Positions 38,544 to 51,372 of a DNA stretch of 64,000 bases are shown piece after piece; position 1 is the first letter of the stretch, and each line of letters begins with the position of its first letter. This stretch comes from Sulfuricurvum sp. (GTDB taxonomy: Bacteria > Campylobacterota > Campylobacteria > Campylobacterales > Sulfurimonadaceae). The stretch is from assembly GCA_024637295.1 (NCBI GenBank), contig JAGXFL010000001.1:62001-126000 (forward strand), read 5' to 3'. Position numbers and translations under genes: made by a program. The notes under the pieces are model-generated. The model did no database searches and had not been told where the DNA came from. It was given only the letters and a program-made list of their open reading frames with translations.

Positions 38544-39653
38544 GTGCTCAATATTGATCGTAGAATTTTAGCACACTTTGACTTTGTGACTGTTGTGCTG
38601 CTGTTACCTATTATTTTTCTCTCCGGTTGGTTGATTACCGAGATACATCCGATGCTTGGACAAAAGCATTTGACCTATGTAGCAGTAGGTATTGGAGTGT
38701 TTATAGCTTTGTTTTTATTGCCGGTACGGCGTATGTTCTGGCTGATTCCCATTTTTTATTGGGTGAGCGTTTTACTGCTGCTTGCGGTTGAGTTTGTAGG
38801 TCATGCGAGGTTAGGCGCAAAACGATGGATTGAGATCCCCTTTGTCCATTTTACGTTGCAACCATCAGAACTTGTCAAACCCGCATTTGTGCTGATGTTG
38901 GCGTATCTAATCAGTCGTAATCCTCCGGAACGCGATGGATACCGCTTCAAAGAATTCATGAAACTCTCCTTTTTCATCATGCTTCCGTTTATCCTTATTG
39001 CCAAAGAACCTGATTTGGGCACTGCGGTCGTTCTGGCTTTGTTGGGATATGGGATTTTGTTTTTAGTTGGTGTGCATTGGAAAATATGGGTCGGATTGGG
39101 TGCACTCTTTTTGATCTCTTTGCCACTTGTCTATACACAATTGCATGATTATCAACGACAGCGTTTAGTTGATTTCGTGAGTGAAAAACCAAGTTATCAC
39201 GTCGAACAATCCATTATCGCAATAGGTTCGGGAGGATTTACGGGAAAAGAAAAAGAAGATGCGACTCAAACACAGATGAAGTTTCTTCCGATCGCTTCAA
39301 GTGATTTTATTTTTGCTTATGTCGTAGAACGCTTTGGATTTCTGGGTGCATTCATGCTGATTTCAGTCTATGCGGCGCTCATCGTCCATTTACTGATGCT
39401 CTCAACCTGGGCAACGGATTATTACACCAAAGTGATCTCCGGCGGATTGTCGCTGTTGATCTTCATTTATATGAGTATCAATATAGCGATGACGATGGGG
39501 CTTTTCCCTGTTGTCGGTGTCCCTTTGCCGATGTTTAGCTATGGAGGGAGCAGTTTTGTGAACTTTATGGTGCTATTTGCCGTGATGGAAAATCTAATTG
39601 CGTATAAATTTCGATATTTATACGATAATGTTGGTAAAAAAAGCTTCGTCTAA
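38544..39653 (+). CDS. rodA: RodA/MrdB-type peptidoglycan polymerase
   Basis: SEDS-family peptidoglycan glycosyltransferase that shapes rod cells with PBP2. About ten membrane helices; RWIEIPFVHFTLQPSELVKPAFVLML carries the catalytic-region PSE motif, followed by IAKEPDLGTAVVLAL and the C-terminal PLPMFSYGGSSFV. 369 residues, typical. GTG start at 38544 has only a weak ribosome-binding site. Followed by a tRNA promoter at 39666. Confidence 0.93.
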   Translation: MLNIDRRILAHFDFVTVVLLLPIIFLSGWLITEIHPMLGQKHLTYVAVGIGVFIALFLLPVRRMFWLIPIFYWVSVLLLLAVEFVGHARLGAKRWIEIPFVHFTLQPSELVKPAFVLMLAYLISRNPPERDGYRFKEFMKLSFFIMLPFILIAKEPDLGTAVVLALLGYGILFLVGVHWKIWVGLGALFLISLPLVYTQLHDYQRQRLVDFVSEKPSYHVEQSIIAIGSGGFTGKEKEDATQTQMKFLPIASSDFIFAYVVERFGFLGAFMLISVYAALIVHLLMLSTWATDYYTKVISGGLSLLIFIYMSINIAMTMGLFPVVGVPLPMFSYGGSSFVNFMVLFAVMENLIAYKFRYLYDNVGKKSFV

Positions 39654-39685: not shown

Positions 39686-39726
39686 GGGTCAATAGTTCAG
39701 TGGTTAGAGCCCTCCGCTCATAACGG
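39686..39726 (+). pseudogene. 5' half of a CAU tRNA gene split by the island
   Basis: The 41 bases comprise the acceptor 5' strand GGGTCAA, D arm (AGTTCAGTGGTTAGAGC), 5' anticodon strand CTCCG, loop CTCATAA, and CGG, then end abruptly. The missing rest starts at 51327, where it overlaps by the 11-bp core. Joining gives a 76-nt tRNA with CTCCG/CGGAG pairing and GGGTCAA/TTGACCC pairing, so these are two parts of one gene. It still has its promoter (39666-39671), but cannot yield a working tRNA here. Confidence 0.88.
39716..39726 (+). repeat. attL core, 11 bp
   Basis: GCTCATAACGG, the anticodon loop and adjacent stem bases. The same 11 bp recurs exactly at 51327-51337. Outside them the flanks differ on both sides, which defines the crossover block of the integrase. 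It also occurs in the island-borne tRNA (39831-39841), a third copy. Confidence 0.85.
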
Positions 39727-39780
39727 GTTTGACTTGAAAGAAGAATTTGCCGATAGACAAGGCGTAAAACAGTCTAAAGA

Positions 39781-39786
39781 TATTAT
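39781..39786 (+). promoter_or_regulatory. -10 box of the island-borne tRNA
   Basis: TATTAT ending 14 bp before the first tRNA base (39801), exactly the spacing seen at the host tRNA (39666-39671). It suggests the island tRNA is transcribed from its own promoter inside the island. Confidence 0.5.
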
Positions 39787-39800
39787 CTTTTCTAATACAC

Positions 39801-39876
39801 GGGTCAATAGTTCAATGGTTAGAGCCCACCGCTCATAACGGTGTTGTTGCAGGTTCAAGTCCTGCTTGACCCACCA
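39801..39876 (+). tRNA. Complete tRNA with CAU anticodon, carried by the island
   Basis: 76 nt with encoded CCA. Acceptor GGGTCAA pairs with TTGACCC; D arm AGTTCAATGGTTAGAGC; anticodon stem CACCG/CGGTG with loop CTCATAA (anticodon CAT at 39834-39836); T arm GCAGG TTCAAGT CCTGC. It differs from the reconstituted host copy at five of 76 positions, two of them a compensatory pair in the anticodon stem (28:42). CAU tRNAs are initiator, elongator Met, or Ile2 (lysidine-modified); a short D loop and loop CTCATAA fit Ile2 or elongator Met, and the sequence does not decide. The initiator is excluded by the Watson-Crick first acceptor pair. Confidence 0.92.
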
Positions 39877-39947
39877 CTTTTATCACTCAAATCAAACTTT
39901 TATTTTATCTCTCAAAAATTGATCTAAAATACTTTAATTTTTAGATG

Positions 39948-39967
39948 GGTGACGGCTTAGGTGACGG
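39948..39967 (+). repeat. Left paired GGTGACGG repeats (candidate integrase arm sites)
   Basis: GGTGACGG at 39948-39955 and 39960-39967 with a 12-bp period. The same pair with 12-bp period occurs near the other island end at 51201-51220, in the same orientation. They sit 232 bp inside the left core and 107-126 bp inside the right core, the layout of integrase arm-type sites. Confidence 0.6.
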
Positions 39968-39968
39968 T

Positions 39969-40160
39969 TTATGATCGCTTTTTAGCTTTTTGAATTTTAT
40001 TTCTCTCCAAAAAATCCACAATGTCCAATACTTTATAGACAATCGAAGGTCCGAATTTTGTGTAGGGTAGTTTTCCTTCACTGCGATAATTGGCAAGTGT
40101 TCCTTTGGAAAATCCAAATTTCACCATGACTTCATTGTCTGTTATGTAATCTTCAAGCAT
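39969..40160 (-). CDS. AlpA-like excisionase / MerR-type HTH protein
   Basis: 63-residue DNA-binding protein of the HTH_17 (excisionase/AlpA) type: DNEVMVKFGFSKGTLANYRSEGKLPYTKFG spans the helix-turn-helix and the wing. Such proteins direct excision or regulate integrase. It overlaps the repA-like gene by ATGA-type coupling (40153-40160) and its stop is 2 bp from the left arm-site repeats, fitting a role in recombination directionality. Confidence 0.8.
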   Translation of the reverse strand: MLEDYITDNEVMVKFGFSKGTLANYRSEGKLPYTKFGPSIVYKVLDIVDFLERNKIQKAKKRS

Positions 40161-41388
40161 ATTTTTCTCCTGTATCTGAGTTATCTGATGTATTGGATGC
40201 AGTCGTCTGATTTTGAAAAGCCCTATTTATGGGGTTATCGGACTTATCTGAGCTATCTGATGGTTTATTAGAGGCAATCAAAGCAAAAACATTCTTATTG
40301 TTTTGCTCTTTAAGTATTTCAGCAATCCAGTATTTACCTTTTCCCTCTTGAATCGTTCGATTGATTCGATCCTTGGCAAATCCCATATCTGAGATATATT
40401 TCATTATCTCCGAGTAGTTGGGCTTACCCTCAAAATTTGCGATAAAATCGATGATTTCTATCCGCATCATTTCATCTTCGTTGGTTTCTTTTGCCCACGC
40501 CAAATCAACATTTGTGAGGATATGTGTTTGCGCCTGATATTGAAATGCCACTTCTTCAAGTTTGCCCACACGATTTTTTAGTGGTTTAAAAATAAATGCT
40601 TTTCGAAATTCGTTGTATTTTAATAATACGGCATTACTTGTATCCTCTTCAAAAGCACTTGACCCCGCATATTGCAATTCCTGAAAATCACGCTGTGGTT
40701 TATTAGTATGATGTAAAAAAATGACGGTAGCCCCTTGTTTTCGTAATCCCTTCCAAATATCCATAATTTCGGAAACATCTTTATTTTTATCACGATCACC
40801 TTTGCCCATAAAGTTTTTTATGGAGTCAATGATCACTAAAGTATCGTGTAAGTCGGTTGTTTTCATCATCTTGATGAGTTGCAACATTTGCATTTTTGTT
40901 GAGTTTGATTCATGAATGTAGCGGAATTTTTTTCCGTGTCGCTGTTTGATCTGTGGAATACCACGTTCATTGAGTGTTGCACTTCCATTGTCAGCATCCA
41001 TATAGACGACCTGATCAACCGTTTTATCCAAAAGTGCCATATTACATATAGCTGATGCCATCAAGCTTTTGCCTTGCCCTGGCTTTGCCGCAATCATCAA
41101 AATATCTGCTTTTACGACGACATTATCAAGGAGGTATTGAATGTTTGCCACTGCAATTTTTCCAATATCAAGGTCGAATTGATCGAGTACACCTTCCAGT
41201 TTTTTTTCATCTCTTTGAAGGCTCTGTAACGGGAGACGATCTTGTAGTTTTTGAATCTCATGATGAATTTGTTCAATCTCATCATAGGTTGTAAACTCGT
41301 TTTGCGTGAGTTCTTCGAGATTAGCTATCTGAAATTTGATCGCTTCGTGCTCTTTAACTCTCTGTTGAATTTTTGATATAATATCCAT
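40153..41388 (-). CDS. RepA-like AAA (RecA-type) ATPase/helicase
   Basis: Plasmid-type RepA helicase/ATPase or AAA_25 protein. Residues 1-70 are a coiled coil; Walker A is AKPGQGKS near residues 101-108 and Walker B is LVIIDS near 184-189. The protein then has IFLHHTNKP and a winged-helix-like region. The C-terminus is Ser/Asp-rich (KPSDSSDKSDNPIN), encoded by DNA containing TCAGATA repeats that also occur at 49124 and 50020. In RSF1010-like systems RepA is the replicative helicase. Start overlaps no gene; a possible antisense RNA covers its leader. Confidence 0.75.
   Translation of the reverse strand: MDIISKIQQRVKEHEAIKFQIANLEELTQNEFTTYDEIEQIHHEIQKLQDRLPLQSLQRDEKKLEGVLDQFDLDIGKIAVANIQYLLDNVVVKADILMIAAKPGQGKSLMASAICNMALLDKTVDQVVYMDADNGSATLNERGIPQIKQRHGKKFRYIHESNSTKMQMLQLIKMMKTTDLHDTLVIIDSIKNFMGKGDRDKNKDVSEIMDIWKGLRKQGATVIFLHHTNKPQRDFQELQYAGSSAFEEDTSNAVLLKYNEFRKAFIFKPLKNRVGKLEEVAFQYQAQTHILTNVDLAWAKETNEDEMMRIEIIDFIANFEGKPNYSEIMKYISDMGFAKDRINRTIQEGKGKYWIAEILKEQNNKNVFALIASNKPSDSSDKSDNPINRAFQNQTTASNTSDNSDTGEKYA
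40173..40260 (-). repeat. TCAGATA-type repeats in repA 3' end
   Basis: Two copies of TCAGATA-R-CTCAGATA lie on the minus strand at 40173-40188 and 40244-40260 within the repA coding end. The 17-bp version at 40244 is identical to the core of both 92-bp intergenic repeats at 49106 and 50001. They could be iterons or remnants of duplicated repA ends. Confidence 0.5.
41377..41382 (+). promoter_or_regulatory. -10 box of a candidate antisense RNA over repA
   Basis: TATAAT on the plus strand within the first codons of repA, which is on the minus strand. TTAACT (41354-41359) is 17 bp upstream and matches 4 of 6 bases of the -35 consensus. Confidence 0.45.
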
Positions 41389-41472
41389 ATTTGATATTTC
41401 CTTGTTTGCTTAACGGGGGTCAAATTAGGAATCAAGGAGTGCTCGAACACTGCTTGATTCAACTATTTTTTT
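41389..41472 (+). ncRNA. Candidate antisense RNA controlling repA
   Basis: From the predicted start (about 41389) to a T-run (41466-41472) is about 84 nt, antisense to the repA leader and covering its ribosome-binding site (41399-41403). It ends in a terminator-like hairpin: TAG-G-AATCAAG-G-AGTG, loop CTCGAA, CACT-G-CTTGATT-C-AA-CTA, then seven T. No gene on the plus strand precedes it, so the terminator would serve only this RNA. The loops on both strands contain YUNR motifs (CUCG, UUCG), as in known antisense/target pairs. Not tested experimentally. Confidence 0.5.
41426..41472 (+). terminator. Hairpin plus T-run ending the antisense RNA
   Basis: Stem with AATCAAG/CTTGATT and AGTG/CACT, a G-G mismatch and loop CTCGAA, extended by TAGG/CCTA-like pairing with two bulged A bases, followed by T7 at 41466-41472. 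Confidence 0.6.
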
Positions 41473-41542
41473 CTGCTAACTTTTGATACGTTTTCTCCTT
41501 ACATTGATTTTCTCAAATTTAGAAATATAAAATCTATACTAT

Positions 41543-41602
41543 TTATTCAAAATGCGGTATGATTTATACTGAATAAATAAATATATTTCTCATTTTGAAT
41601 AA
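41543..41602. promoter_or_regulatory. 12-bp inverted repeat, candidate operator of the CI-like regulator
   Basis: TTATTCAAAATG (41543-41554) and CATTTTGAATAA (41591-41602) are perfect inverted copies 36 bp apart, in the region between repA and the divergent regulator. They could be two half-sites or two binding sites for the regulator starting at 41660. Confidence 0.5.
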
Positions 41603-41659
41603 TTATTTGTCATTATGAGCAATTAAATCTTACAAAAGCTTTAAAGAAAAGAGTGTTCC

Positions 41660-42391
41660 ATGCAAATTGATACTAAATTGTTTTTATTACGTCTTAGAAT
41701 TGCCCTTAATATCAAAAATAATGTTGATCTTGCAAAAGTATTGGAAGTGCCTTATTCAACTCTGAATACATGGCTTACGCGTAATTCATTACCACTTGAA
41801 AATATTATTAGTAAGCCTATTTGTAAAAACTTATCCATAGATTGGCTTCTAGGCAAAGATGATAATGAGCCCATTAACTTTTCGAAATTACCGAGTTTTA
41901 TCGCTGCTATTGATATTGCAAGTGAAACAGAAGATGGCTTTTCAATTTTAAATTCACTATTTGATGGTTTCATAATTGAACAAATTATTCAAAAATTATT
42001 GGATGCGTATGTGAACAGCAAAAGAAATATGCCTAACAATATTATCACGAGGATGAAACGACTTCTTTTTAATGTGACAGAGGGAAGATTTTTGATGCTA
42101 CTGGATGAAATGCTTCATAAAATCGACTTCAAAAAGGGTGATGATGCACATGCTAAAATTCAAGAATTCATAAGTGGAGATTTTTTTCACCCATTTCTCT
42201 CAAAGCCAGCATTTAAAAAATCCGAAAAAGTTGCTTTTCAGGCTTGGGCAGAGGATTTGAGCAAAGAAGAAGCAGAATTTTTGCTTGAAAAATCAGAAGA
42301 AATACACGAAAAATTAAAGATACTAATCCCTAAAATATCCAAAAGGAATAGTGCGTTTGATGTTACCGTGATGAAAAAACTCACGTCATAA
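41660..42391 (+). CDS. CI-like helix-turn-helix regulator
   Basis: N-terminal helix-turn-helix of the phage CI-repressor type (VDLAKVLEVPYSTLNTWLTRNSLP, residues 19-42), followed by a helical C-terminal part without a visible protease (Ser-Lys) motif of LexA/CI-type repressors. 243 residues. It is divergent from repA and likely controls the excision/replication genes through the inverted repeat at 41543-41602. An alternative is a DUF-type regulator; the domain order is consistent with both. Confidence 0.72.
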   Translation: MQIDTKLFLLRLRIALNIKNNVDLAKVLEVPYSTLNTWLTRNSLPLENIISKPICKNLSIDWLLGKDDNEPINFSKLPSFIAAIDIASETEDGFSILNSLFDGFIIEQIIQKLLDAYVNSKRNMPNNIITRMKRLLFNVTEGRFLMLLDEMLHKIDFKKGDDAHAKIQEFISGDFFHPFLSKPAFKKSEKVAFQAWAEDLSKEEAEFLLEKSEEIHEKLKILIPKISKRNSAFDVTVMKKLTS

Positions 42392-42402
42392 TTCGAGTAA
42401 TA

Positions 42403-42492
42403 TTAAAAGAATTTCTCAATCGCTTTTCTAAACGACGGGATAAAGAGAGCAAAAACAACAAATAAAATCCCTACAAGCAAAAATTCTATCAT
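42403..42492 (-). CDS. 29-aa membrane peptide coupled to the relaxase gene
   Basis: Too short for most gene finders. Starts at ATG with CAT 42490-42492, overlapping the relaxase stop as ATGA. Sequence MIEFLLVGILFVVFALFIP is one hydrophobic helix followed by SFRKAIEKFF. Role unknown; small hydrophobic peptides next to mobilisation genes can affect transfer or membrane attachment. Confidence 0.55.
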   Translation of the reverse strand: MIEFLLVGILFVVFALFIPSFRKAIEKFF

Positions 42493-43991
42493 CGTTCAAA
42501 TCCTTTTCCTCGATTTTCTTGTTGGCGTTCTAACTTTTCCCGCTCTTTTTGAGCGTTTAAAAGCTCCTCACGCTCTTTTTGTACTTCGCCTATGGATTTC
42601 CCCGTAAATTTGTTAAAAATGCTTTTAACTGCCTCTTTCATTCGTTCTTTGCCGTATTCTAATGCCTTGATAAGCCCGTTTTTCTCTTTGTGGATTTTTT
42701 GGTGCTCATTTTCTCGCTCTCTGACCTTTTGAATGAACACGTCCTTATCGAACACCTGCTTCGTGGTCGTGTAGATCAAGCCTTTTTCCTCCACGGCTGT
42801 GTAGGAGGCTTTTAGCATCTCGTCGATAGGGTCGATTTCTTTCCCGTTCTCGTCTTTTTTGATAAGCTCTTTTTCGCCTAATGGGTAGCTTATCGGCTTC
42901 GTGATCTCCTCGATCTCCTCAAAAATCTTGATAGGGTCGATTTTCGGGGCGTTCCCCTCTTTGAGCTGTGCTTGAAGCTCTTTGTATTTCGCTTCCATTT
43001 GAGCGTAATCCGCTCTCGTGGCTCCCTGCTCTTTGAGTTGCGCCCGTTCCTCTTTCTGCGCCTCCTTGAGGGCTTGTATCTCCTCTTTGAGGCTCTTGTT
43101 TTCTTTCTCGGAGAGTTCGAGGCGTTTGTTGAGGGTGTCCGTTTCAACGCCATTCCCAATGATCGCTCTCATCTCTTGGCGCATTTCCAACCGTTCCGCT
43201 ATTGGTAGGCTATCGTATTTTTCGCATAGCGATTGCTCCGATTTTATCCCCTTAGCAAGGGCTTTAATCTTTTCATTGCGTACCGCTTTGTGCTGTGTCT
43301 TGATCTGTTCGACTGGTGTACGTTTTTTGCTTCCTTTTTCGGGGTTGTAGTCAAGCCCCAACACCTTTGAAGCCGTCTTGATACGGTCGTTTAATTCGTT
43401 GTGCTTCATTCGTCCCGTTTTACCCGTTTGTAGGTCGAACATTGAGAACTTAACGTGGGCGTGTATGTTGTGTATCGGCTTGAAATCGTTGATGTCCACT
43501 TTTTCGCTGAACTCATGCACTTTGGGCTTATAGCTCGGTTTCATTTCAAGGGATTGATCTAGGGGGACGATGTACCAACCGTCCTCTTTTTGGAGTATGT
43601 CTTTTGTCGGGTAATAGGTCACGCCGTTTTTGTCCTCGAAGTGTCCCTCGTCTTTGTGGATGGATAGCTCGGTGATGTAGTGACCGCCGTATTTTTCGTT
43701 TAGCTGATTGAATACCTTTTGAACGTCGGCTTTGGTATGGTGATCGTCGAGGGAGAGTACCGTTTCTTTGATGAGTGCATCGATCTGTTTTTGTTGCATT
43801 TTTTGACTCGTGACCTCTTGATATTTGACCTTAGCCAGTTCAAGAAAATCACTGTCGGAGTGACGGAGATCGTAAACATTTTCCTCTCCATTTTTGGCAC
43901 CGATTAGATAGTCGGGAATATCATCCCTAGAGTTATGCTCACTCGAATGTGCGCTCGCTTTGAGAACGGAAAACGTCGCTGATTTTGCCAT
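42489..43991 (-). CDS. Relaxase/mobilisation protein (MobV-like)
   Basis: 500-residue mobilisation protein. The N-terminal 200 residues carry relaxase-type His motifs: HKDEGH at residues 112-117 and HNIHAH at 174-179, resembling the SVHxDE and HxH metal-site motifs of MobV/Pre relaxases. The rest is a long, charged, coiled-coil region (KENKSLKEEIQALKEAQKEERAQ) as in Mob proteins. The ATG 43991 has an AAGGAAAAG site; the frame extends 26 codons farther upstream but that part crosses the nested palindromes. Expected role: nicking at oriT, which is likely just upstream. A conjugation pore is not encoded. Confidence 0.68.
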   Translation of the reverse strand: MAKSATFSVLKASAHSSEHNSRDDIPDYLIGAKNGEENVYDLRHSDSDFLELAKVKYQEVTSQKMQQKQIDALIKETVLSLDDHHTKADVQKVFNQLNEKYGGHYITELSIHKDEGHFEDKNGVTYYPTKDILQKEDGWYIVPLDQSLEMKPSYKPKVHEFSEKVDINDFKPIHNIHAHVKFSMFDLQTGKTGRMKHNELNDRIKTASKVLGLDYNPEKGSKKRTPVEQIKTQHKAVRNEKIKALAKGIKSEQSLCEKYDSLPIAERLEMRQEMRAIIGNGVETDTLNKRLELSEKENKSLKEEIQALKEAQKEERAQLKEQGATRADYAQMEAKYKELQAQLKEGNAPKIDPIKIFEEIEEITKPISYPLGEKELIKKDENGKEIDPIDEMLKASYTAVEEKGLIYTTTKQVFDKDVFIQKVRERENEHQKIHKEKNGLIKALEYGKERMKEAVKSIFNKFTGKSIGEVQKEREELLNAQKEREKLERQQENRGKGFER

Positions 43992-44010
43992 CTGCTTTTC
44001 CTTTTTTGAG

Positions 44011-44108
44011 TACCCTTGTGGTGCTTGAAAAACAACCGTACCATAAGGTGCGTAGTTGCAACTACGCACCTTAAAAGGTACTTGTTGCGAAATTATACCA
44101 CAAGGGTA
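44011..44108. other. Nested inverted repeats: candidate oriT
   Basis: A 30-bp perfect palindrome (44044-44073; TAAGGTGCGTAGTTG and its complement) is nested inside a 12-bp perfect inverted repeat (TACCCTTGTGGT at 44011-44022, ACCACAAGGGTA at 44097-44108). The pair flanks the mobilisation gene's upstream region, where oriT normally lies. No T-run follows, so a simple terminator is less likely. It could also be a regulatory structure of the relaxase transcript. Confidence 0.55.
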
Positions 44109-44139
44109 TTATTTCGGAAAGGCAGGGGGAGTGGGGAGG

Positions 44140-44262
44140 TTACTTTTTGAACTTATCGATAATCCAAAAAATCGGCATCAAAAGTGTCATTACGACTTTT
44201 AAAAGTAGGGGGTCGCCACCACCGATATGTATAGGTTCTTCATCTCTATTTTTGTTTATCAT
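44140..44262 (-). CDS. 40-aa small protein with one membrane segment
   Basis: Starts at CAT 44260-44262, overlapping the stop of the 90-residue gene by ATGA, and ends TAA at 44140. Sequence begins MINKNRDEEPIHIGGGDP, followed by a hydrophobic helix LLLKVVMTLLMPIFWII and a basic tail. Unknown function. Coupled translation supports that it is real. Confidence 0.55.
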   Translation of the reverse strand: MINKNRDEEPIHIGGGDPLLLKVVMTLLMPIFWIIDKFKK

Positions 44263-44531
44263 TTACTACCATCCAAAACAACAACCGTTTCCTTATCCTC
44301 TATTAGAATATAGGCGGTAACTGTCATTAGTATTTTGCCATATTTCTCTACTCGCTTAACTACAATATCATTCGGGTTGATACCACGTTTTTTGGCTTGT
44401 TTTTCTGTAATAAATTCAAAATTGATAAATTTTGGAGGAGTGATGTCGCCATCTTCGGTAATATAATGTACGTCTTTTATGAGTTCGGCACTTTTTCTAA
44501 TATCTGATACTTCTTTTAACCATGCTCTCAT
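44259..44531 (-). CDS. Hypothetical protein, 90 aa
   Basis: Soluble, with no recognised domain. The middle part reads FITEKQAKKRGINPNDIVVKRV and the end VTAYILIEDKETVVVL. The ribosome-binding site is weak. It ends with coupling to the 40-aa peptide gene at 44259-44262. Its neighbours suggest a mobilisation-accessory role, which is speculative. Confidence 0.55.
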   Translation of the reverse strand: MRAWLKEVSDIRKSAELIKDVHYITEDGDITPPKFINFEFITEKQAKKRGINPNDIVVKRVEKYGKILMTVTAYILIEDKETVVVLDGSK

Positions 44532-44604
44532 GTTGATTCAACCTTGTATTTAAATAGCTTTACACCTCAATTATACTTTTATGTCTGATTTTAAACTCGA
44601 TAGT

Positions 44605-44787
44605 CTATTTTTTAGGTTTTGTAATCCAAGTGTAGAGATCAAGCATACCTGCGACTGCAAATGCTATGATCCATAAAGAAGCTATAAAAATTGTGCTTAC
44701 TGCAAAATATGCAAATAAGCCACCACCTAAAAAAGCTAACATTTTTGATCCTATATTTTTGTTACCACGTTTTGAGGACTTTTTCAT
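44605..44787 (-). CDS. 60-aa membrane protein
   Basis: Two hydrophobic stretches (MLAFLGGGLFAYFAVSTIFIA and LWIIAFAVAGMLDLYTW) after a basic start MKKSSKRGNK. Overlaps the EexN-like gene by 26 bp. Unknown function; small membrane protein of a mobile element. Confidence 0.55.
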   Translation of the reverse strand: MKKSSKRGNKNIGSKMLAFLGGGLFAYFAVSTIFIASLWIIAFAVAGMLDLYTWITKPKK

Positions 44788-45037
44788 CGCCCTTGATCGG
44801 TTTTAAACCGCCACTACGAAATAGAGCCGATGAAGCGTTCATACAATTTTGATATTCAGGTGACGGGCTAAGTTGTGTCCCCTCTAATGAGCCGTTATCT
44901 TTTTTGATTTTGCATTCATCTTTAACGGCTTTCGCTTCGTCAAGGTGTGCTTTGTAATAATCTACACTCTGAACGTCTTGCCCGCACCCCGTTAAAAGAA
45001 ATAAAATACCCGTGAAATAAATACATGACGCTTTCAT
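44762..45037 (-). CDS. EexN-like entry-exclusion lipoprotein
   Basis: Signal peptide with lipobox (MKASCIYFTGILFLLTGC, Cys18), then the EexN pattern: VDYYKAHLDEAKAVKDECK followed by a second conserved Cys block (QNCMNASS). EexN/TrbK proteins sit in the envelope of cells holding a conjugative element and block entry of the same type. 91 residues. The ATG at 45035-45037 is chosen because AGGA is well placed and the upstream extension lacks a signal peptide. Confidence 0.72.
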   Translation of the reverse strand: MKASCIYFTGILFLLTGCGQDVQSVDYYKAHLDEAKAVKDECKIKKDNGSLEGTQLSPSPEYQNCMNASSALFRSGGLKPIKGDEKVLKTW

Positions 45038-45119
45038 TGCAAGTCCTATGGGAAGTTGATTGATGATGGTAACTGCTATAAACTTAGAACAATCTAAAGT
45101 CCAGTGGGAAGTTACTTGT

Positions 45120-45365
45120 ATGTCGTCTCGAAAAACACTCCCTATCGAAGAATTGCATTTCAAAATTGGGCAGAATGTTAAGAAATATCGAGAAGAAAAA
45201 GGGTTCACACAGTTGGACTTATCGCACGAGATAGGACATAGTACCACCACGATCATATCCCTTGCCGAAATCGGCAAACGCAAGCACTTCAATATCCAAC
45301 AACTCTATCAAATTTCCATCGCTCTTGATGTTAATATCTGTCAATTTTTTGAGCTTGATGCCTAA
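45120..45365 (+). CDS. XRE-family helix-turn-helix regulator
   Basis: 81-residue protein whose core is a classic HTH_3 domain: IGQNVKKYREEKGFTQLDLSHEIGHSTTTI and the end FNIQQLYQISIALDVNICQFFEL. Divergent from the EexN-like gene; probable repressor of the mobilisation or cargo genes. ATG 45120 has GGAAG before it; an in-frame ATG at 45060 would add 20 residues of unlikely sequence. Confidence 0.8.
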   Translation: MSSRKTLPIEELHFKIGQNVKKYREEKGFTQLDLSHEIGHSTTTIISLAEIGKRKHFNIQQLYQISIALDVNICQFFELDA

Positions 45366-45583
45366 GAATCGTGAGTAATAAATACGAAAAACAGTCTCAA
45401 ATTAGACTCATGCGCTATAATAACCTCTATTTAGCGGCACAAAAATTGTCACTTTTTCAAAAATCCGTTTTAAATGTCATAAAACAGAATAAAAGTCTCT
45501 TTTTTTAAATATAATTAATGTCATGTTGTACACGCTTTATGGATTAAGTGCGGATTTTATAGTGATTGTGGAGGGGTGAGAAT
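45366..45583. promoter_or_regulatory. 218-bp AT-rich upstream region with two -10 boxes
   Basis: No gene. TATAAT occurs at 45416-45421 and 45510-45515; the second is best placed for the leader peptide and protease. A weak hairpin (AGTCT/AGACT, 45393-45408) follows the XRE gene but has no T-run. Confidence 0.5.
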
Positions 45584-45643
45584 ATGGTTCAAATTAGAAA
45601 TTTCAAAATACAGTCATCTAAAAATTTTGGAATGTGTTTATGA
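45584..45643 (+). CDS. 19-aa leader peptide coupled to the protease gene
   Basis: Very strong ribosome-binding site (GGAGGGG) before ATG 45584; the peptide MVQIRNFKIQSSKNFGMCL ends at TGA 45641-45643, which overlaps the protease ATG at 45640 as ATGA. The gene itself has a poor ribosome-binding site, so its translation probably depends on the leader. Confidence 0.55.
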   Translation: MVQIRNFKIQSSKNFGMCL

Positions 45644-46758
45644 TTCAACCATCTGAAACAGTTGTTCATTTAACTATTTGCAGGGATGAAATAGAACTTG
45701 CTGTAGGTAGTGGTGTTTTTTACAAAAGAAATGGGAAAAGTTATATTGTTACTGCTTGGCATAATGTAGCAGGTAGACATACTGATACACTCCAAAGTCT
45801 TAGTAGCACTTTAGCTGTGCCCAATAAAGTGATTGCAAGTTTTTCACATCAAATTTTTCAGGGAGAATTTAAAGGATCTGTTAATAGAAGTATAACTTTG
45901 TCTTTGGAAGAAAATGGTCAAAAAACTTATTATGTGCATCCTCAAGGCTGGCCAAAAGTAGATGTTGTAACCATACCAATAGATTTAGATAAACAATATT
46001 TATCTGAAGGTTCGCTGCTTGATGGGGAAAAAATTAATATTCCAACTATTTTGAAAAATAATTCTACTATGGGTTTAAGCACAGATATTATCCATGTACA
46101 AGATATAGAATTTCAGTACAACGGTATTCAAGATTATTCTGATTATTTGTATGCAAGTGAAGATATATTTATTATCGGTTATCCAAAGGGCATAACTGAT
46201 CAAACAGGTCAACCTATTTGGAAACGAGCTACAGTGGCAACAAGCCCTCATCTTGGATGGGAAAAACAAGAACAATTTTTAGTTGATTGTGCTTCAAAAC
46301 AGGGAATGTCAGGTGCCCCCGCATTTTTCTATAATCTTAAAGGGCATATTAATTTAGGTCACACAAATGTAATTACCAGTTCACCAATAACGATTTTTCA
46401 TGGAATCTATGTAGGAAGAATAGGTGGTACATCTGAATTTGAAGCACAAATAGGAAGAATCTGGAAAAGAAAAGTTATTGATGAAATTATTGATAATGCT
46501 CAATTTGATTTTTTATCGGATGAATTGATTCTTCCAGATTCTGAAATATTAGAGATCATTCAGAAACAATGGCCTGATGAAAAAGAAAAATATGCAGAAA
46601 GTATATTAAAAGAAAATAGTATGTTGTCTAAAGTTCTCCTATATACTGTAATGAAGGAAATTAATGGCAGAGCTGATTATCAAGATGTGGAAAAGCAGAT
46701 AATACAATTTGCTAAAAATTTAAACTTTGGGACAGAAAACAAAACGAGAATAGGCTGA
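45640..46758 (+). CDS. Trypsin-like serine protease
   Basis: 372-residue protease with a trypsin-like domain and triad His41 (TAWHN), Asp108 (KVDVV) and Ser224 (QGMSGAPAF). The oxyanion-type GMSGAP is typical of stress or defence-linked trypsin-like proteins. The C-terminal 90 residues are helical and unassigned (WPDEKEKYAESILKEN). No signal peptide, so it is cytosolic. In defence islands such proteases work with sensor partners; here the neighbours are the CoiA-like and unknown genes. ATG 45640 is used, supported by the leader overlap and codon pattern; a GTG at 45634 is an alternative. Confidence 0.82.
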   Translation: MIQPSETVVHLTICRDEIELAVGSGVFYKRNGKSYIVTAWHNVAGRHTDTLQSLSSTLAVPNKVIASFSHQIFQGEFKGSVNRSITLSLEENGQKTYYVHPQGWPKVDVVTIPIDLDKQYLSEGSLLDGEKINIPTILKNNSTMGLSTDIIHVQDIEFQYNGIQDYSDYLYASEDIFIIGYPKGITDQTGQPIWKRATVATSPHLGWEKQEQFLVDCASKQGMSGAPAFFYNLKGHINLGHTNVITSSPITIFHGIYVGRIGGTSEFEAQIGRIWKRKVIDEIIDNAQFDFLSDELILPDSEILEIIQKQWPDEKEKYAESILKENSMLSKVLLYTVMKEINGRADYQDVEKQIIQFAKNLNFGTENKTRIG

Positions 46759-46806
46759 GTTGATAGTTAGCACATTTGAAAATTTTGTTGCATAAAGAAA
46801 AATATT

Positions 46807-47163
46807 ATGAAGTATCACTTCACGAATCATGCCAAACAACGACGGGTGAATCATACACCAAAAAGTGATGAAGAACTTCTAGCAATTATGAAAATGCTTG
46901 ATGATTACTTTGACTTTAAAACGCTTGATGATGGTAAATATAAAATTTATAAGGGCGGTGCAACCGCTATTTTCAACAAAAAAAACAATTCTATTGTGCT
47001 GATTACCATTAGGGGCTTTAAAAAAATAAGCCTTACGGAGGGTAAGCCAATCATCATCCGTCCGATTACCGCAGAAGAAGAAGCGATAAAAATGGAGAAG
47101 AAAGCCAAAAAGGAGCAAGCCAAACGCATTGCCTCCTTATCCAACATGAAAGTTTTTTTATGA
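46807..47163 (+). CDS. Hypothetical protein, DUF4258/toxin-like, 118 aa
   Basis: The N-terminal part (YHFTNHAKQRRVNHTPKSDEELLAIM) has a pattern of His/Arg seen in small toxin-like proteins that bind RNA, but no assignment is certain. The C-terminus is Lys/Glu-rich. The stop overlaps the CoiA-like gene as ATGA-type (47160-47163), so the two are co-translated. I infer only that they belong to one operon. Confidence 0.5.
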   Translation: MKYHFTNHAKQRRVNHTPKSDEELLAIMKMLDDYFDFKTLDDGKYKIYKGGATAIFNKKNNSIVLITIRGFKKISLTEGKPIIIRPITAEEEAIKMEKKAKKEQAKRIASLSNMKVFL

Positions 47164-48194
47164 CTATTCCTTTTGGATACAAAAAAGAGACGGATGAGTA
47201 TGTTGATATTGATGAAGTAGAAAATGGGTTAGCGTGTAATTGTATTTGTCCCTCTTGTGGTATGAGACTCGAAGCTAGACATGGTAATGAACGGGAACAT
47301 CATTTTAAACACCATGAAAAAGCCGAGACAGAATGTAGTTATTCATTTTGGGTGGCTGTGCGATCAATGGCTAAACAAATCCTCGAACGAAGTGTTTCTC
47401 TAAATGTAGATACTATGCCATTTTTTACAAAAATCCCATTTAAAAATCAATGGGTTACACTCGATATTTTTGCAAAAAATCTAAGACAAAAAAATCACGG
47501 GTTCGATTTTGAACTGCTTACACCGATAGGGTTCATTTATATCTATTTCGTAACTCTTGAAGATGCAAGTGCAGGAAGGTATCGATCTCATTTTAAGAAT
47601 AAGCCAAAATATTTTACATCGCAACTGATCCTAGAAATCGATTTAACGAGCCTAATATCAGTCAAAAATAATACTAAAAGCCGTTTAGAAAAACTGATTT
47701 TAGAGGAGCTTGATTCAAAAGAGTGGGTCACAGTATCTCATTCTTACGTCTTAAAAAAGAAAGCAAAAATTGATAATCACCGACTGAGTAAAAATATAGT
47801 TACCAATAATTCTCAAGATGAAGATGATGAATTATCGGATTATGATAAGCCTTATGTTGTAAATAAATCATTACTTGGTGTTTTTGGGCTAGATGAAACT
47901 AATCTAAATAGGATGAGTCTTGGAGTAGTAAACAGAATGATTCAGTTTTATCAGTATCATATTAAAAGACATCAGAGAAAAAAAAGTTCAAGATGGTTTT
48001 ATGTACTTGAAAAAGGTTTGAACCTTTACTTCATTAATTATGAGTATGAATTTTACGGTGTTGCGAAGTTGGATCAATTCTACATATATCAAGTGATTAA
48101 TGATGTTCCTATTTTTATCAGTAAAGTTGAGAATTTTGAAGAGCTGAGAAATGAGATAGATAAATATTTTTGTGAGCGGGAGAATATTTTTTAA
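47160..48194 (+). CDS. CoiA-like protein with Cys/His N-terminal domain
   Basis: N-terminal Cys-Cys/His motif (CNCICPSCGMRLEARHGNER followed by HHFKHH, residues 24-55) resembles the zinc-finger-like start of competence protein CoiA and related nuclease-associated proteins. The middle segment (VTLDIFAKNLRQKNHGFDFEL) may be a restriction-endonuclease-like fold, as in CoiA. The C-terminal 150 residues are unassigned. Co-translated with the preceding gene. Defence or DNA-processing role is inferred. Confidence 0.6.
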   Translation: MTIPFGYKKETDEYVDIDEVENGLACNCICPSCGMRLEARHGNEREHHFKHHEKAETECSYSFWVAVRSMAKQILERSVSLNVDTMPFFTKIPFKNQWVTLDIFAKNLRQKNHGFDFELLTPIGFIYIYFVTLEDASAGRYRSHFKNKPKYFTSQLILEIDLTSLISVKNNTKSRLEKLILEELDSKEWVTVSHSYVLKKKAKIDNHRLSKNIVTNNSQDEDDELSDYDKPYVVNKSLLGVFGLDETNLNRMSLGVVNRMIQFYQYHIKRHQRKKSSRWFYVLEKGLNLYFINYEYEFYGVAKLDQFYIYQVINDVPIFISKVENFEELRNEIDKYFCERENIF

Positions 48195-48255
48195 TCACGC
48201 ATTTATAGATTTTGGTGTATACTACTTTTCAGAATTGATCACTGCGTAGCGGGGG

Positions 48256-48996
48256 TCAATTATCCTTCGGTAATACTACTAATCCATGTCCCCCAACTTT
48301 TCCATTTTTATCTTTACGAAATTTTTGTTCAATAATTTCAAAATCTTTATTGGTTTTTTTACCTATGATGTGCCGACCGATGGGAGAAACCACCAAATCT
48401 GCGAGTTGGAGACCGTTTAGATTTTCTTTTTTATCTTTTAGGATTAACCCACCCGAAATACGATCTTCGATCTCAGCACCTTTTAGAAAACGGGTTCCTT
48501 TGATTTTGAGCTGTAACCATGAAAGTTCAAGTTCATGGTCAAGGGTTCTATCCCGCTTTTCAGCGATAACAAGCCCTTTTTTCTCATCTGATTTAATCTC
48601 CATATAAAATCGTTCGACAAGAACATTTAGTCCAAGCATATAGGGATCAATAGCGGCATAATCGTATTTGGCAATATGTTCTTTTTTCTTAATCACGCAC
48701 GCAACAACTTTAAAATCAAGAGTAGCGATGAGATGATTCAATTTCTCATAGAAATTCTCACGAAACTCTTTTTCTTTTAGCCGTTCAAAGCCATTTTTAT
48801 TGCGTGTGATGTCAGCAGTATGGAGAATAATATCCGTTGTACCGAATATCTCTTTTTTGAACTGATCTATCCGTTCATTGAGATTTTCGAGATTATCACG
48901 ATCAACAATTACCCCACCTAAAACGAATACGGGGTATTGATCATCAATTTTGGTAAGGTTATGATCACCAGACTCATCCAAAAAGAGTATTTTCAT
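48256..48996 (-). CDS. DUF3800 protein (RNase H-fold)
   Basis: Starts MKILFLDESGDHNL, the family signature with catalytic-looking Asp/Glu, and continues VFVLGGVIVDRDNLENL. 246 residues. DUF3800 proteins are common in mobile and defence-linked loci and are predicted to have an RNase H-like fold; the activity is not known. It faces the CoiA-like gene tail to tail with a 61-bp gap. Confidence 0.8.
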   Translation of the reverse strand: MKILFLDESGDHNLTKIDDQYPVFVLGGVIVDRDNLENLNERIDQFKKEIFGTTDIILHTADITRNKNGFERLKEKEFRENFYEKLNHLIATLDFKVVACVIKKKEHIAKYDYAAIDPYMLGLNVLVERFYMEIKSDEKKGLVIAEKRDRTLDHELELSWLQLKIKGTRFLKGAEIEDRISGGLILKDKKENLNGLQLADLVVSPIGRHIIGKKTNKDFEIIEQKFRKDKNGKVGGHGLVVLPKDN

Positions 48997-49105
48997 ATTG
49001 GCAAGCCCTTTATTGATATTTATTAAGATGATTATATCTACTGGAACTTGTAGTCACGGTAAATTAGAGAGAAATGTAATGTATAAATAGATTTGATACT
49101 TTTTT

Positions 49106-49197
49106 AAAAAACATCAAGATAAGTCAGATAGCTCAGATAACCCCTATTTTGCGTGATAGTTTTTCTTTTTGGTGTTTGCATTTGATCAGATAGGTGG
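49106..49197 (+). repeat. 92-bp direct repeat, copy 1
   Basis: Matches 50001-50093 with about four substitutions and one indel. Contains three TCAGATA heptamers. One reading frame encodes SDSSDNPYFA followed by a stop, resembling the repA C-terminus. It lies 23 bp after the 3' end of the unknown gene at 49221, which is flanked by the two copies. Confidence 0.75.
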
Positions 49198-49220
49198 TGG
49201 AGTGTTGTTCAAGATTGGCA

Positions 49221-49898
49221 TTATTGAAACTTTTTTTCGTATTCTTTTTGCCATTTGGTATAAGTTGCTTTGGTCGTTTTTTCGTATTTACTCCAATATC
49301 TACAGAACCCTATTTTATCCGTAATTTGTAAAGTTGGTTTTTCTTGATACTTGTAATATATGCCGTCCCGATAAGCAAATTTCCATAATTTTCCGTAGCC
49401 AGCAACTACCTCAAAATCAAAATCATTTAGAAACATAGCACCTAAAATTTTATTGCTATGAAAGGTATCTTTTTCAATTTTAATAAATAATCCGTCATAA
49501 ATTAAATAGTCTTTTTCTGCTCGATCAGGTTCATTTATTTTTTCAAAAACCTCTCTTGGGTTATTTTTCCATTCAGCCATTTTTTGCTGTTTCTCTTTTT
49601 TCTTTTCAATGCTATATTCGAACACCGATAAATTTTTTGGTTGCTTTGATTTTTCAAGGCTATCAGATAGCTCGCTTTGATGCTTTCTAATATCTCTTAA
49701 TATTGCAGTTGAATGATTGAGGATTGTATCTTGATGCGACATATTGTTTAAGCCAACAAGAATATAGCAATTTTTCCATGTAGATGCACGTCTTAGACTA
49801 ACGTACTGGATGCTCCGAATCGTTTCTTCATCAAGATGATTTTCGAATATGTGTTCATAATCAACAAACTTATTAACCTTTTCAGTCCATGAAGCCAT
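49221..49898 (-). CDS. Hypothetical protein between direct repeats, 225 aa
   Basis: Not recognised. Soluble and helical N-terminal half (YEHIFENHLDEETIRSIQYV), a basic coiled-coil region (YSIEKKKEKQQKMAEWKN) and a beta-rich, aromatic C-terminus (FEVVAGYGKLWKFAYRDGIYYKY). AT-rich. The 92-bp direct repeats on both sides suggest it entered as a unit, or that the repeats duplicated around it. No toxin or enzyme signature seen. Confidence 0.6.
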   Translation of the reverse strand: MASWTEKVNKFVDYEHIFENHLDEETIRSIQYVSLRRASTWKNCYILVGLNNMSHQDTILNHSTAILRDIRKHQSELSDSLEKSKQPKNLSVFEYSIEKKKEKQQKMAEWKNNPREVFEKINEPDRAEKDYLIYDGLFIKIEKDTFHSNKILGAMFLNDFDFEVVAGYGKLWKFAYRDGIYYKYQEKPTLQITDKIGFCRYWSKYEKTTKATYTKWQKEYEKKFQ

Positions 49899-50000
49899 AT
49901 TTACCCCCTCAAGTATTTGAGAATCTATAATTTATTTTACTGACAATACCTATAATTTTATACCTAACTTTATGTCATATCAGCAGAATATTATTTTCAT

Positions 50001-50093
50001 AAAAAACAGCAAGATAAGGCAGATAGCTCAGATAACCCCTATTTTGCGTGATAGGTTTTCTTTTTTGGTGTTTGCATTTAATCAGATAGGTGG
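50001..50093 (+). repeat. 92-bp direct repeat, copy 2
   Basis: Second copy of the repeat at 49106-49197, in direct orientation, between the unknown gene (start 49898) and the integrase stop (50120). Contains TCAGATA-type heptamers in the same places. Confidence 0.75.
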
Positions 50094-50119
50094 GTGTATA
50101 TGCTGTTTGATTCACTGAA

Positions 50120-51187
50120 TTATCGTTTTGTAGTTGCGATAGTATCAATCATTTCGGAAGCTATCTTGCTTCCGATAGTGTAATTCAATGAAAGGTACTT
50201 AGTTATCGTGTTGGGATCGTTGTGTCCTAGCGCACCGCTCAGGTGGATCGATTCAACCCCTCGCTCTGCCATCGCCGATACAATTAAATTTCTTGTGTAA
50301 TGAAGTGTAAAGTGATAGCCAGTTTTTTCCCTGATTTTCAAAGTTTGTTTATAGATAGAGTTCATCCGCTTTCCAGTTCTTTTTGACGGAAATAATAACC
50401 CCTCAGATGGCATAAATTCCATTATTGCGGCTTTTACTTCATGATCTAGGTACATCTTTTGATCTTCTTGGTTCTTTGTATCTCGTAAAATATAATAGTT
50501 TTGATCCAATATGACATCTTCGACCCTCAAATCAAATATCTCACCACGTCGTCGCCCTTGGAGAGCAAGTAAAAAAAATGCACGATAGAAGGGGTTATTA
50601 GCGTAAAGCTCAATAATCGCGTCATGGACTATTTTTACTTGCTTTGAAGCATCAGAAACTATTTTTTTTGTTTTTGGAACTTTAATATGAACATCTTCAC
50701 ATGGATTGTAAAACATAACACGATTGGCTCTTGCTATACGGAATGCAGGCGATAAAATTTCTACAACTTGTTTTGCTGTTTTTGGAGCCGCACCATTTTT
50801 GATGAGATTGTCTACTATTTTTTGGATTTGATCGGGAATAATGGTTGCAATTTTTTTGTTTCCGAGTTCTCTTTGGACATTACGCTTGTAATATGATTTT
50901 CGATTTTTTTTATAGTCACCTTCGTCTAAAGTTTCAAAATATTTTTCCACCATGTCATCTACTGTAGCATCAACACTAATGCCGGCTTCAACTTTATTTT
51001 TTATTTCTAGGAATTCTCTTTGAGCTATTGATATGAGATCACGTTTGCCTAAATCTTTTTCTGATAGGTCTATAATGCCACGGTATTGCTTTTTCTCAAA
51101 CTCAAATCGATACCAAAAACGGGTGAAATTATGATTGGCTTTTAAGTTTTTCATTACTACATTGTCAAACTGCTCTTTTGGAGGCAT
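50120..51187 (-). CDS. int: Tyrosine-recombinase integrase of the island
   Basis: Site-specific recombinase that inserts and excises the island. Catalytic residues are visible in the 355-residue form: Arg214 in GRRRGEIF, His296 and Arg299 in LHYTRN, His322 in ALGHND and Tyr331 in ITKYLS. The N-terminal 180 residues hold the arm-binding and core-binding parts. ATG 51187 is preceded by AAAGGATT; a longer frame starts at 51241 and passes through the right arm repeats. The gene points away from the adjacent right end. Confidence 0.92.
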   Translation of the reverse strand: MPPKEQFDNVVMKNLKANHNFTRFWYRFEFEKKQYRGIIDLSEKDLGKRDLISIAQREFLEIKNKVEAGISVDATVDDMVEKYFETLDEGDYKKNRKSYYKRNVQRELGNKKIATIIPDQIQKIVDNLIKNGAAPKTAKQVVEILSPAFRIARANRVMFYNPCEDVHIKVPKTKKIVSDASKQVKIVHDAIIELYANNPFYRAFFLLALQGRRRGEIFDLRVEDVILDQNYYILRDTKNQEDQKMYLDHEVKAAIMEFMPSEGLLFPSKRTGKRMNSIYKQTLKIREKTGYHFTLHYTRNLIVSAMAERGVESIHLSGALGHNDPNTITKYLSLNYTIGSKIASEMIDTIATTKR

Positions 51188-51200
51188 AGGAATCCTTTTT

Positions 51201-51220
51201 GGTGACGGGTAAGGTGACGG
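51201..51220 (+). repeat. Right paired GGTGACGG repeats (candidate integrase arm sites)
   Basis: GGTGACGG at 51201-51208 and 51213-51220, 12-bp period, just upstream of the integrase start and 107 bp inside the right core. Same sequence, spacing and orientation as the left pair (39948-39967). Confidence 0.6.
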
Positions 51221-51326
51221 CTTAGTAATGAATGATAGCATATTTTAATTAACTAGTATGAGATTGTACGCCCTTTTTATGGACTATACTGAGGGGATTA
51301 AATTGAGAATTATAATAGTAAAATTA

Positions 51327-51337
51327 GCTCATAACGG
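51327..51337 (+). repeat. attR core, 11 bp
   Basis: GCTCATAACGG identical to the left core 39716-39726; start of the 3' part of the split tRNA. Confidence 0.85.
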
Positions 51338-51372
51338 AGTTGTCGCAGGTTCAAATCCTGCTTGACCCACCA
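51327..51372 (+). pseudogene. 3' half of the CAU tRNA gene split by the island
   Basis: Begins with the 11-bp core and continues with AGTTGTCGCAGG, T arm GCAGG TTCAAAT CCTGC, acceptor 3' strand TTGACCC and ACCA. Its anticodon 3' strand is CGGAG, complementary to the CTCCG of the 5' half (39711-39715) and not to the CACCG of the island tRNA. Promoterless here. Confidence 0.88.

Follow-up and report, generated by a model that had tools for sequence, protein, structure and literature searches.

A Sulfuricurvum island that splits the host tRNA-Ile2(CAU) gene and carries a complete spare: a probable case of tRNA-dependent integration in Campylobacterota

What follows for a cell when a mobile element interrupts a tRNA gene on which the cell very probably depends, and does not rebuild it? 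The question is raised by an island of about 11.6 kb in the genome of Sulfuricurvum sp. (G000; GenBank assembly GCA_024637295.1, 2.17 Mb in 13 contigs), which lies within the stretch of 64,000 nucleotides that we analysed (C2:62001–126000; the window). The island splits a tRNA gene with a CAU anticodon and brings with it a separate, complete tRNA. A first-pass annotation had taken this arrangement for hostage taking, in which the island seizes a possibly essential gene and supplies a substitute, so that only precise excision is tolerated. We consider it very likely that the island is an integrative element with tRNA-dependent integration into tRNA-Ile2(CAU), for which it carries a complete spare. 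In the mechanism that we propose, a tyrosine integrase would recombine the 11-bp core of the element's attachment site (attP) with the anticodon loop of the single host tRNA-Ile2(CAU) gene, leaving the host tRNA unrebuilt at the integration junction. The complete tRNA-Ile2 gene beside attP would take over AUA decoding once integrated, and it would probably be transcribed from the host tRNA promoter, which then lies upstream of the 5′ half. Since a whole spare need not pair with a host 5′ half, one element could enter hosts whose acceptor and anticodon stems differ, and excision would restore the host gene exactly.

The split gene and its substitute

The 5′ half of the host gene on the attL side (39686–39726, forward strand) ends with the core GCTCATAACGG (39716–39726), which lies in the anticodon loop; the 3′ half on the attR side, with its CCA (51327–51372, same strand), begins with the second copy of the core (51327–51337), and these 11 bp are common to both halves. 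Rejoined, they give a 76-nt tRNA in which the acceptor (7/7), anticodon (5/5) and T (5/5) stems are completely paired, as the first-pass annotation had proposed, and the product equals, letter for letter, the intact gene at seven of the 30 genus loci compared. A host-type gene stands intact at the site in 25 of these loci, as would be expected of island-free relatives, and 20 of the 25 genomes yielded no 3′-half fragment in a search that gave matches in 36 of 41 genus genomes overall. A rodA-like host gene (38544–39653, forward) immediately precedes the tRNA in each of the 30 loci, the window included. The GGDEF gene on the right flank is not syntenic at the relatives' loci, so the right border is defined by the tRNA half itself.

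The substitute is the complete tRNA at 39801–39876 (forward), which is the sole tRNA in the window according to ARAGORN and to Rfam at the gathering threshold. It has the anticodon of the broken gene (CAT in the DNA) and is 93% identical to it. No tRNA is restored at the junctions of the island, as would be the case for an ordinary tRNA-targeting island: the attL junction, formed by the 5′ half and island DNA, folds no better than shuffled sequences (z = 0.29), and ARAGORN calls no tRNA there. Genome-wide, 40 tRNAs score above the cut-off, and the other CAU tRNAs among them are two initiators and one elongator Met. Neither the whole-assembly tRNA scans nor a pattern search found a second intact Ile2 in G000, which upholds the supposition of a single-copy gene as far as the assembly shows. 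A CTCATAA match at C2:110015 was rejected as a tRNA, as none is called there. The 40 assembled tRNAs include no tRNA-Ile with any other anticodon, GAU among them, so a GAU gene, and perhaps more, must be missing from the assembly; a further tRNA hidden in unassembled rRNA operons is still conceivable.

By elimination, the CAU tRNA at 39801–39876 and the split gene are assigned as tRNA-Ile2. The top-ranked E. coli matches of this tRNA are annotated as tRNA-Ile and have the same CTCATAA loop, and G000 encodes lysidine synthetase (TilS). AUA accounts for 44 of the 251 Ile codons in seven host open reading frames (ORFs), and tRNA-Ile2 is very probably essential. Could the extra tRNA instead serve the translation of island genes, or evade tRNA-cutting defences, the split host gene being incidental? 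AUA is indeed used more by the island, for 66 of 248 Ile codons in nine of its ORFs. However, the carried tRNA keeps the anticodon loop CTCATAA, and in 19 of 19 cases it has the CAU anticodon of the gene that was broken, which leaves this explanation only a slim chance.

Integration modes, stem pairing and host range

A search of 228 genomes of the family at E <= 1e-10 gave an integrase match in 79. At the 15 best integrase places, the window included, an Ile2-like 3′ half lies shortly beyond the integrase start in 13; of the other two, G174 stops within the core and G109 lacks a 3′ half. Among the named genome loci, several of which are in the same genomes, a 3′ half adjoins the integrase in 15 of 21, one of these halves (at L157) being that of an initiator tRNA. 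The 17 viral-contig loci comprise 12 with the 3′ half, three in attP form (L216–L218) and two with neither. At L157 (PDPI01000025.1), an integrase 41% identical to that of the window adjoins an initiator tRNA 3′ half, and the integrase family may therefore have moved between CAU tRNAs. For the window's integrase, comparison with a phage collection gave only weak matches (three records, 25–27% identity), and comparison with plasmids gave none.

These elements integrate in two ways. The elements of G044, G045, G065, G078 and G217 show ordinary repair: one end bears a complete tRNA and the opposite end a 3′ half. The replacement layout, in which a host 5′ half is followed by a whole tRNA, occurs in the window and in G057, G066, G008, G026, G027, G103, G146, G151 and G188, that is, in ten of the 228 family genomes and in four genera, with no match for a reversed-pattern control; the pattern demands GTTAGAG and CTCATAAC and misses other forms. 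Three of 398 genomes drawn from the order have this layout, all within the family, and four of five viral-contig matches to the pattern are of this kind; L210, a match to the doublet pattern, was rejected as an artefact of N and a repeat. By pattern search, the replacement is the only intact Ile2 in G057, G066, G026, G027, G103, G146 and G151. An assembly artefact or a binning chimera might be suspected, as many of the relatives are fragmented metagenome-assembled genomes and contig ends in G064 and G082 coincide with the repeat. A consistent layout nevertheless recurs in ten genomes, from four genera, and on four viral contigs, and we regard the chance of an artefact as negligible.

The two modes also meet in one genome, G073, where an extra tRNA accompanies a repaired one. 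Between the integrases of G045 (repair), G073 (both) and G066 (replacement), identity is 93.7–96.3%, and starred branches of the integrase tree, in which 11 of 23 rows have no assigned mode, force at least three mode changes. Because near-identical integrases differ in mode, and mode is unclustered on the tree, the mode seems to be determined by the att DNA and not by the integrase. A supposed decayed tRNA in G045 was rejected, since 877 of 1000 shuffles score as high.

Some further observations were made at related loci. Away from the site, G044 holds a replacement-type Ile2 copy without a matching 5′ acceptor strand (C1:80412–80483; L124), a probable pseudogene. In G188:C5 (L262), a spacer and a remnant of the 5′ half of a replacement tRNA are followed, as read by eye, by the core and a host 3′ half, which looks like a decayed second left end. 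The end of G064:C112, the start of G064:C75 and the end of G082:C54 coincide precisely with the tRNA core or half, and unassembled copies of the island may lie behind these breaks. From its ORFs, the cargo of the G073 island (L109) looks like a type I restriction system with a KAP-like NTPase.

All 19 replacement-type tRNAs examined are fully paired in the acceptor, D, anticodon and T stems (counting G-U as a pair), as are all five rejoined hosts, of which G008 has one G-U and G188 was joined from two contigs. By contrast, none of 13 hypothetical chimeras of a host 5′ half and an element 3′ half is fully paired in the acceptor and anticodon stems (L206, whose 5′ half is cut, is omitted): the five Sulfuricurvum-type chimeras are short of one anticodon-stem pair as well as the 15:48 match, and the remaining eight lack between one and three acceptor pairs. 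The Sulfuricurvum type (six of 19) differs from its host at pair 28:42 and at 15:48 (G-C to A-U), and nine of the 13 other replacement tRNAs have A-U instead of G-C at 10:25. With one mismatch allowed, the D-arm signature of these nine occurs in nine of the 228 family genomes, namely in seven replacement-layout elements, in G189 at an element end, and in G089, which is discussed below. An identical 77-nt replacement tRNA lies next to dissimilar host halves in G026 and G146, which belong to different genera, and one common 76-nt replacement stands beside two host types in the window, G057, L207 and L209. A half-tRNA could hardly serve all of these hosts, whereas a whole tRNA can, and from the pairing we infer a host-range advantage for the whole tRNA.

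Spacer, mobility and gene content

The replacement tRNA is separated from the attL core by a spacer of 74 nt (39727–39800, forward). The distance between the end of CTCATAA and the tRNA is 97–102 nt in 14 of 17 elements, 77 nt in the window and G057, and 57 nt in G151. TATAAT (at least 5/6) stands at the promoter position in 28 of 30 intact host-type Ile2 genes. A box at this position precedes only two of the 19 replacement-type tRNAs, those of the window (20 nt before the tRNA) and G057, both with TATTAT, and in 15 of 17 spacers the position is occupied by arm repeats. As most sister elements have no box just before the tRNA, the replacement tRNA is probably transcribed, after integration, from the host promoter that lies ahead of the 5′ half. 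By eye, a GCC-N9-GGC motif (39749–39763) followed by (T)AAACxGTCT or a variant (together 39749–39775) recurs in most sister spacers, G151 excepted.

Evidence of mobility comes from relatives. In L216–L218, the order upstream of the integrase is X (the DNA that precedes the attR core in integrated copies), core, spacer and tRNA, an attP form with the complete tRNA. Contig C47 of G008 begins and ends a few bases outside the tRNA halves and so holds attL and attR, while contig C63 of the same bin holds the intact gene with the same flanks, that is, attB. All three sites thus occur together in one bin, perhaps from mixed strains, and this bears out the earlier proposal that precise excision would rebuild the host gene. 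The copy in the window is presumably mobile at present as well.

The complete tRNA might also be a leftover of nested or tandem integration, namely the junction that an older, ordinary element had repaired. The repaired and extra tRNAs of G073 and the apparent decayed second left end in G188 would fit such an origin. It does not account for the recurrent layout, with a loop-to-tRNA spacer of 77 or 97–102 nt in 16 of 17 elements, for the tRNA in attP-like forms, or for the covarying pairs that the replacement types have of their own. Nor does it account for the confinement of the commoner type's D-arm signature to element ends and G089 (nine of 228 genomes), or for replacement tRNAs common to hosts as unlike as G026 and G146. 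Nested integration was therefore rejected as the main origin and is very unlikely.

Several observations weigh against tRNA-dependent integration into tRNA-Ile2, or against parts of it. ARAGORN labels the tRNA at 39801–39876 as Met, and similarity is a poor guide to the choice between Ile2 and Met: the replacement tRNA is 71% identical to E. coli tRNA-Ile and 68% to the elongator Met of the genome, and the host copy is 71% identical to each. On the integrase tree, the modes group together no more than shuffled labels do (333 of 500 as low). In G188 (87% complete) attL and attR lie on different contigs, and G189 (88% complete) holds a host-type Ile2 as well as an element end. The attP-like contigs L216–L218 could be junctions of tandem copies, and a cell might tolerate the losses of a Sulfuricurvum-type chimera, which amount to one stem pair plus 15:48. 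The case for promoter capture is at its weakest in the element of the window itself, which has TATTAT at −20 of the replacement tRNA. Furthermore, its X has TATAAT 16 nt from the attR core, and the free form may thus also be transcribed. In this AT-rich DNA, −10 hexamers anywhere in the spacer or X are not above chance, and only the position near the tRNA was used as hexamer evidence.

The tyrosine integrase of the island (50120–51241, reverse; an open frame of 373 aa) has R230/R231, K256, H314, R317, H340 and Y349, which are invariant across 14 aligned sequences. The repeat GGTGACGG has six matches in the window against 0.87 expected, and four of them form two pairs, one near each island end (39948–39967 and 51201–51220, forward), which may serve as integrase arm sites. 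Next to the left pair lie an excisionase or AlpA-like HTH_17 protein, assigned in part from PHROGs (39969–40160, reverse), and an AAA_25 ATPase resembling replication helicases (40153–41388, reverse). These are followed by a CI-like repressor with a Phage_CI_repr HTH (41660–42391, forward), a putative mobilisation protein of 526 aa (42489–44069, reverse) and an HTH_3/XRE-type protein (45060–45365, forward). The remainder comprises a trypsin-like protease that matches the candidate defence family PDC-S45 of PADLOC (45634–46758, forward), a small cargo protein (46807–47163, forward), a CoiA_N-like protein whose match is below the cut-off (47160–48194, forward), a DUF3800 protein (48256–48996, reverse) and a further cargo protein (49221–49898, reverse).

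A PHROGs scan of ten island proteins, which did not take in the other small ORFs, found no named structural or lysis family; its matches were to integrase, excisionase, repressor, replication-type and one protease families, the remaining families being of unknown function. On this gene content the island would not be classed as a temperate phage, and it might conceivably be a phage satellite. The histidine motifs of the 526-aa protein, read by eye, resemble those of mobilisation proteins. Its relatives are in six small-plasmid records (Aliarcobacter, Arcobacter and Campylobacter), all typed as non-mobilizable; it has no Pfam relaxase match, its predicted structure is poor (predicted local distance difference test, pLDDT, 49), and a scan of viral contigs with this protein gave no relatives. 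Elsewhere in G000, a lone initiator-tRNA 3′ half with a CTCATAA loop lies at C3:181492–181521 (L263, position 993). It is perhaps the attR of a second island in an fMet gene; a complete fMet stands at C3:138210.

Hostage or replacement

Does the island, then, hold its host to ransom? The rival explanation of addiction says that the spare is retained because it keeps an essential gene captive, which would stabilise the island. It is true that the host gene is split, that the spare is the only Ile2 found, and that loss of the left end should be lethal. However, integrases 94–96% identical occur with half-repair, with both modes and with replacement, and precise loss rebuilds the host gene (G008); addiction is unlikely as the reason for keeping the spare. 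The hostage claim of the first-pass annotation therefore stands in part: the gene is split, a substitute is supplied and the assembly holds a single copy. Addiction to the island as a whole is not supported, since only the leftmost ~150 bp would be protected: with the spare at the far left, selection would guard that end only. The corollary that only precise excision is tolerated is not supported either, because the substitute ends within the first 150 nt and deletions that spare this end should be tolerated.

G089 apparently provides such a case. Its only Ile2, among four CAU matches, is of the replacement type, and it is not among the family genomes listed with an integrase match. The region upstream of this tRNA is host-like, scoring above shuffles against three of four host loci and tying with them for the fourth. 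An element-like remnant, at ~110–174 nt beyond the tRNA, precedes another gene; it scores 55–67 against G151, L216 and L218, where the maximum of 300 shuffles is 33, has a marginal match to G008 and has none to L217, G188 or G026. G089 thus looks like a relic, in which nearly all of the element was lost and the tRNA kept. The reverse, that a chromosomal gene like that of G089 was the source of the elements' tRNA, is conceivable, but the remnant speaks for loss. Loss of the element's left end is predicted to be lethal, and loss of the rest was apparently tolerated in G089. G089 thus points to a host gene being replaced rather than to a cell addicted to its island.

The principle of tRNA-dependent integration is already known. 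tRNA-dependent lysogeny is proven in mycobacteriophages (Guerrero-Bustamante and Hatfull, PMC10865867), and the actinobacteriophages named are Fionnbharth, LeBron, OneUp, Mollymur and Gaia; Gordonia phages at tRNA-Ile2 are listed, with Ile2-CAT for OneUp and Mollymur, and the tRNA of Fionnbharth, which overlaps a coding gene, is served by a promoter of its own, as a reporter showed (PMC10865867). The Sulfuricurvum island has in common with these phages, as described there, a tyrosine integrase with attB in a host tRNA, a short core (8–17 bp in theirs) and a junction that is not rebuilt, and in both cases related elements may use ordinary repair. It differs in being an island of Campylobacterota without recognised phage genes, whereas theirs are phages of Actinobacteria (PMC10865867). 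Unlike in Fionnbharth, the tRNA lies 74 nt past the CGG that ends the core (94–99 nt in 14 of 17 elements), mostly without an adjacent promoter-like box.

Other systems offer partial parallels. In Sinorhizobium meliloti, phage-related sequences or islands bring a tRNA that replaces the one inactivated by integration, with fMet, Met and Thr named (PMC11476347); the phylum is another, and the passages on it do not describe an attP-adjacent layout. The phiLM21-like prophages are described without the tRNA-replacement feature in the passages of PMC12429752. Ordinary tRNA-integrating islands (Islander, PMC4383910) have a tyrosine integrase, a tRNA target and a fragment at the far end in common with the window island, but they supply the missing half at the junction. 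The Lj965 prophage of Lactobacillus johnsonii, a possible tRNA-dependent case as cited in PMC10865867, likewise has no repaired junction and a cognate tRNA on the element, although it is a phage of a Firmicute. Tycheposons (PMC10872708) likewise combine a tRNA at the border with a tyrosine recombinase. Judged from titles and the starts of abstracts, our literature searches gave no instance of tRNA replacement in Campylobacterota or of the attP-adjacent layout. What appears to be new is a tRNA beside attP, 97–102 nt past the loop in 14 of 17 elements, together with the probable use of the host tRNA promoter, the switching between half-repair and replacement among near-identical integrases, and domestication.

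We tentatively suggest, as a possibility that falls somewhat short of probable, that a family of elements in Campylobacterota evolved a complete tRNA linked to attP, which integration itself turns on by placing it under the host tRNA promoter, and that these elements, freed from pairing compatibility with the host, cross genera and can permanently replace the tRNA-Ile2 lineage of a host, as in G089. The findings would bring tRNA-dependent integration, established in actinophages, to islands in a different phylum. The natural series of ordinary repair, both modes, full replacement and relic offers a means of testing whether host range, promoter capture or hostage taking explains why some elements carry a whole tRNA, and it points to a way in which a foreign gene may replace an essential tRNA gene of its host.

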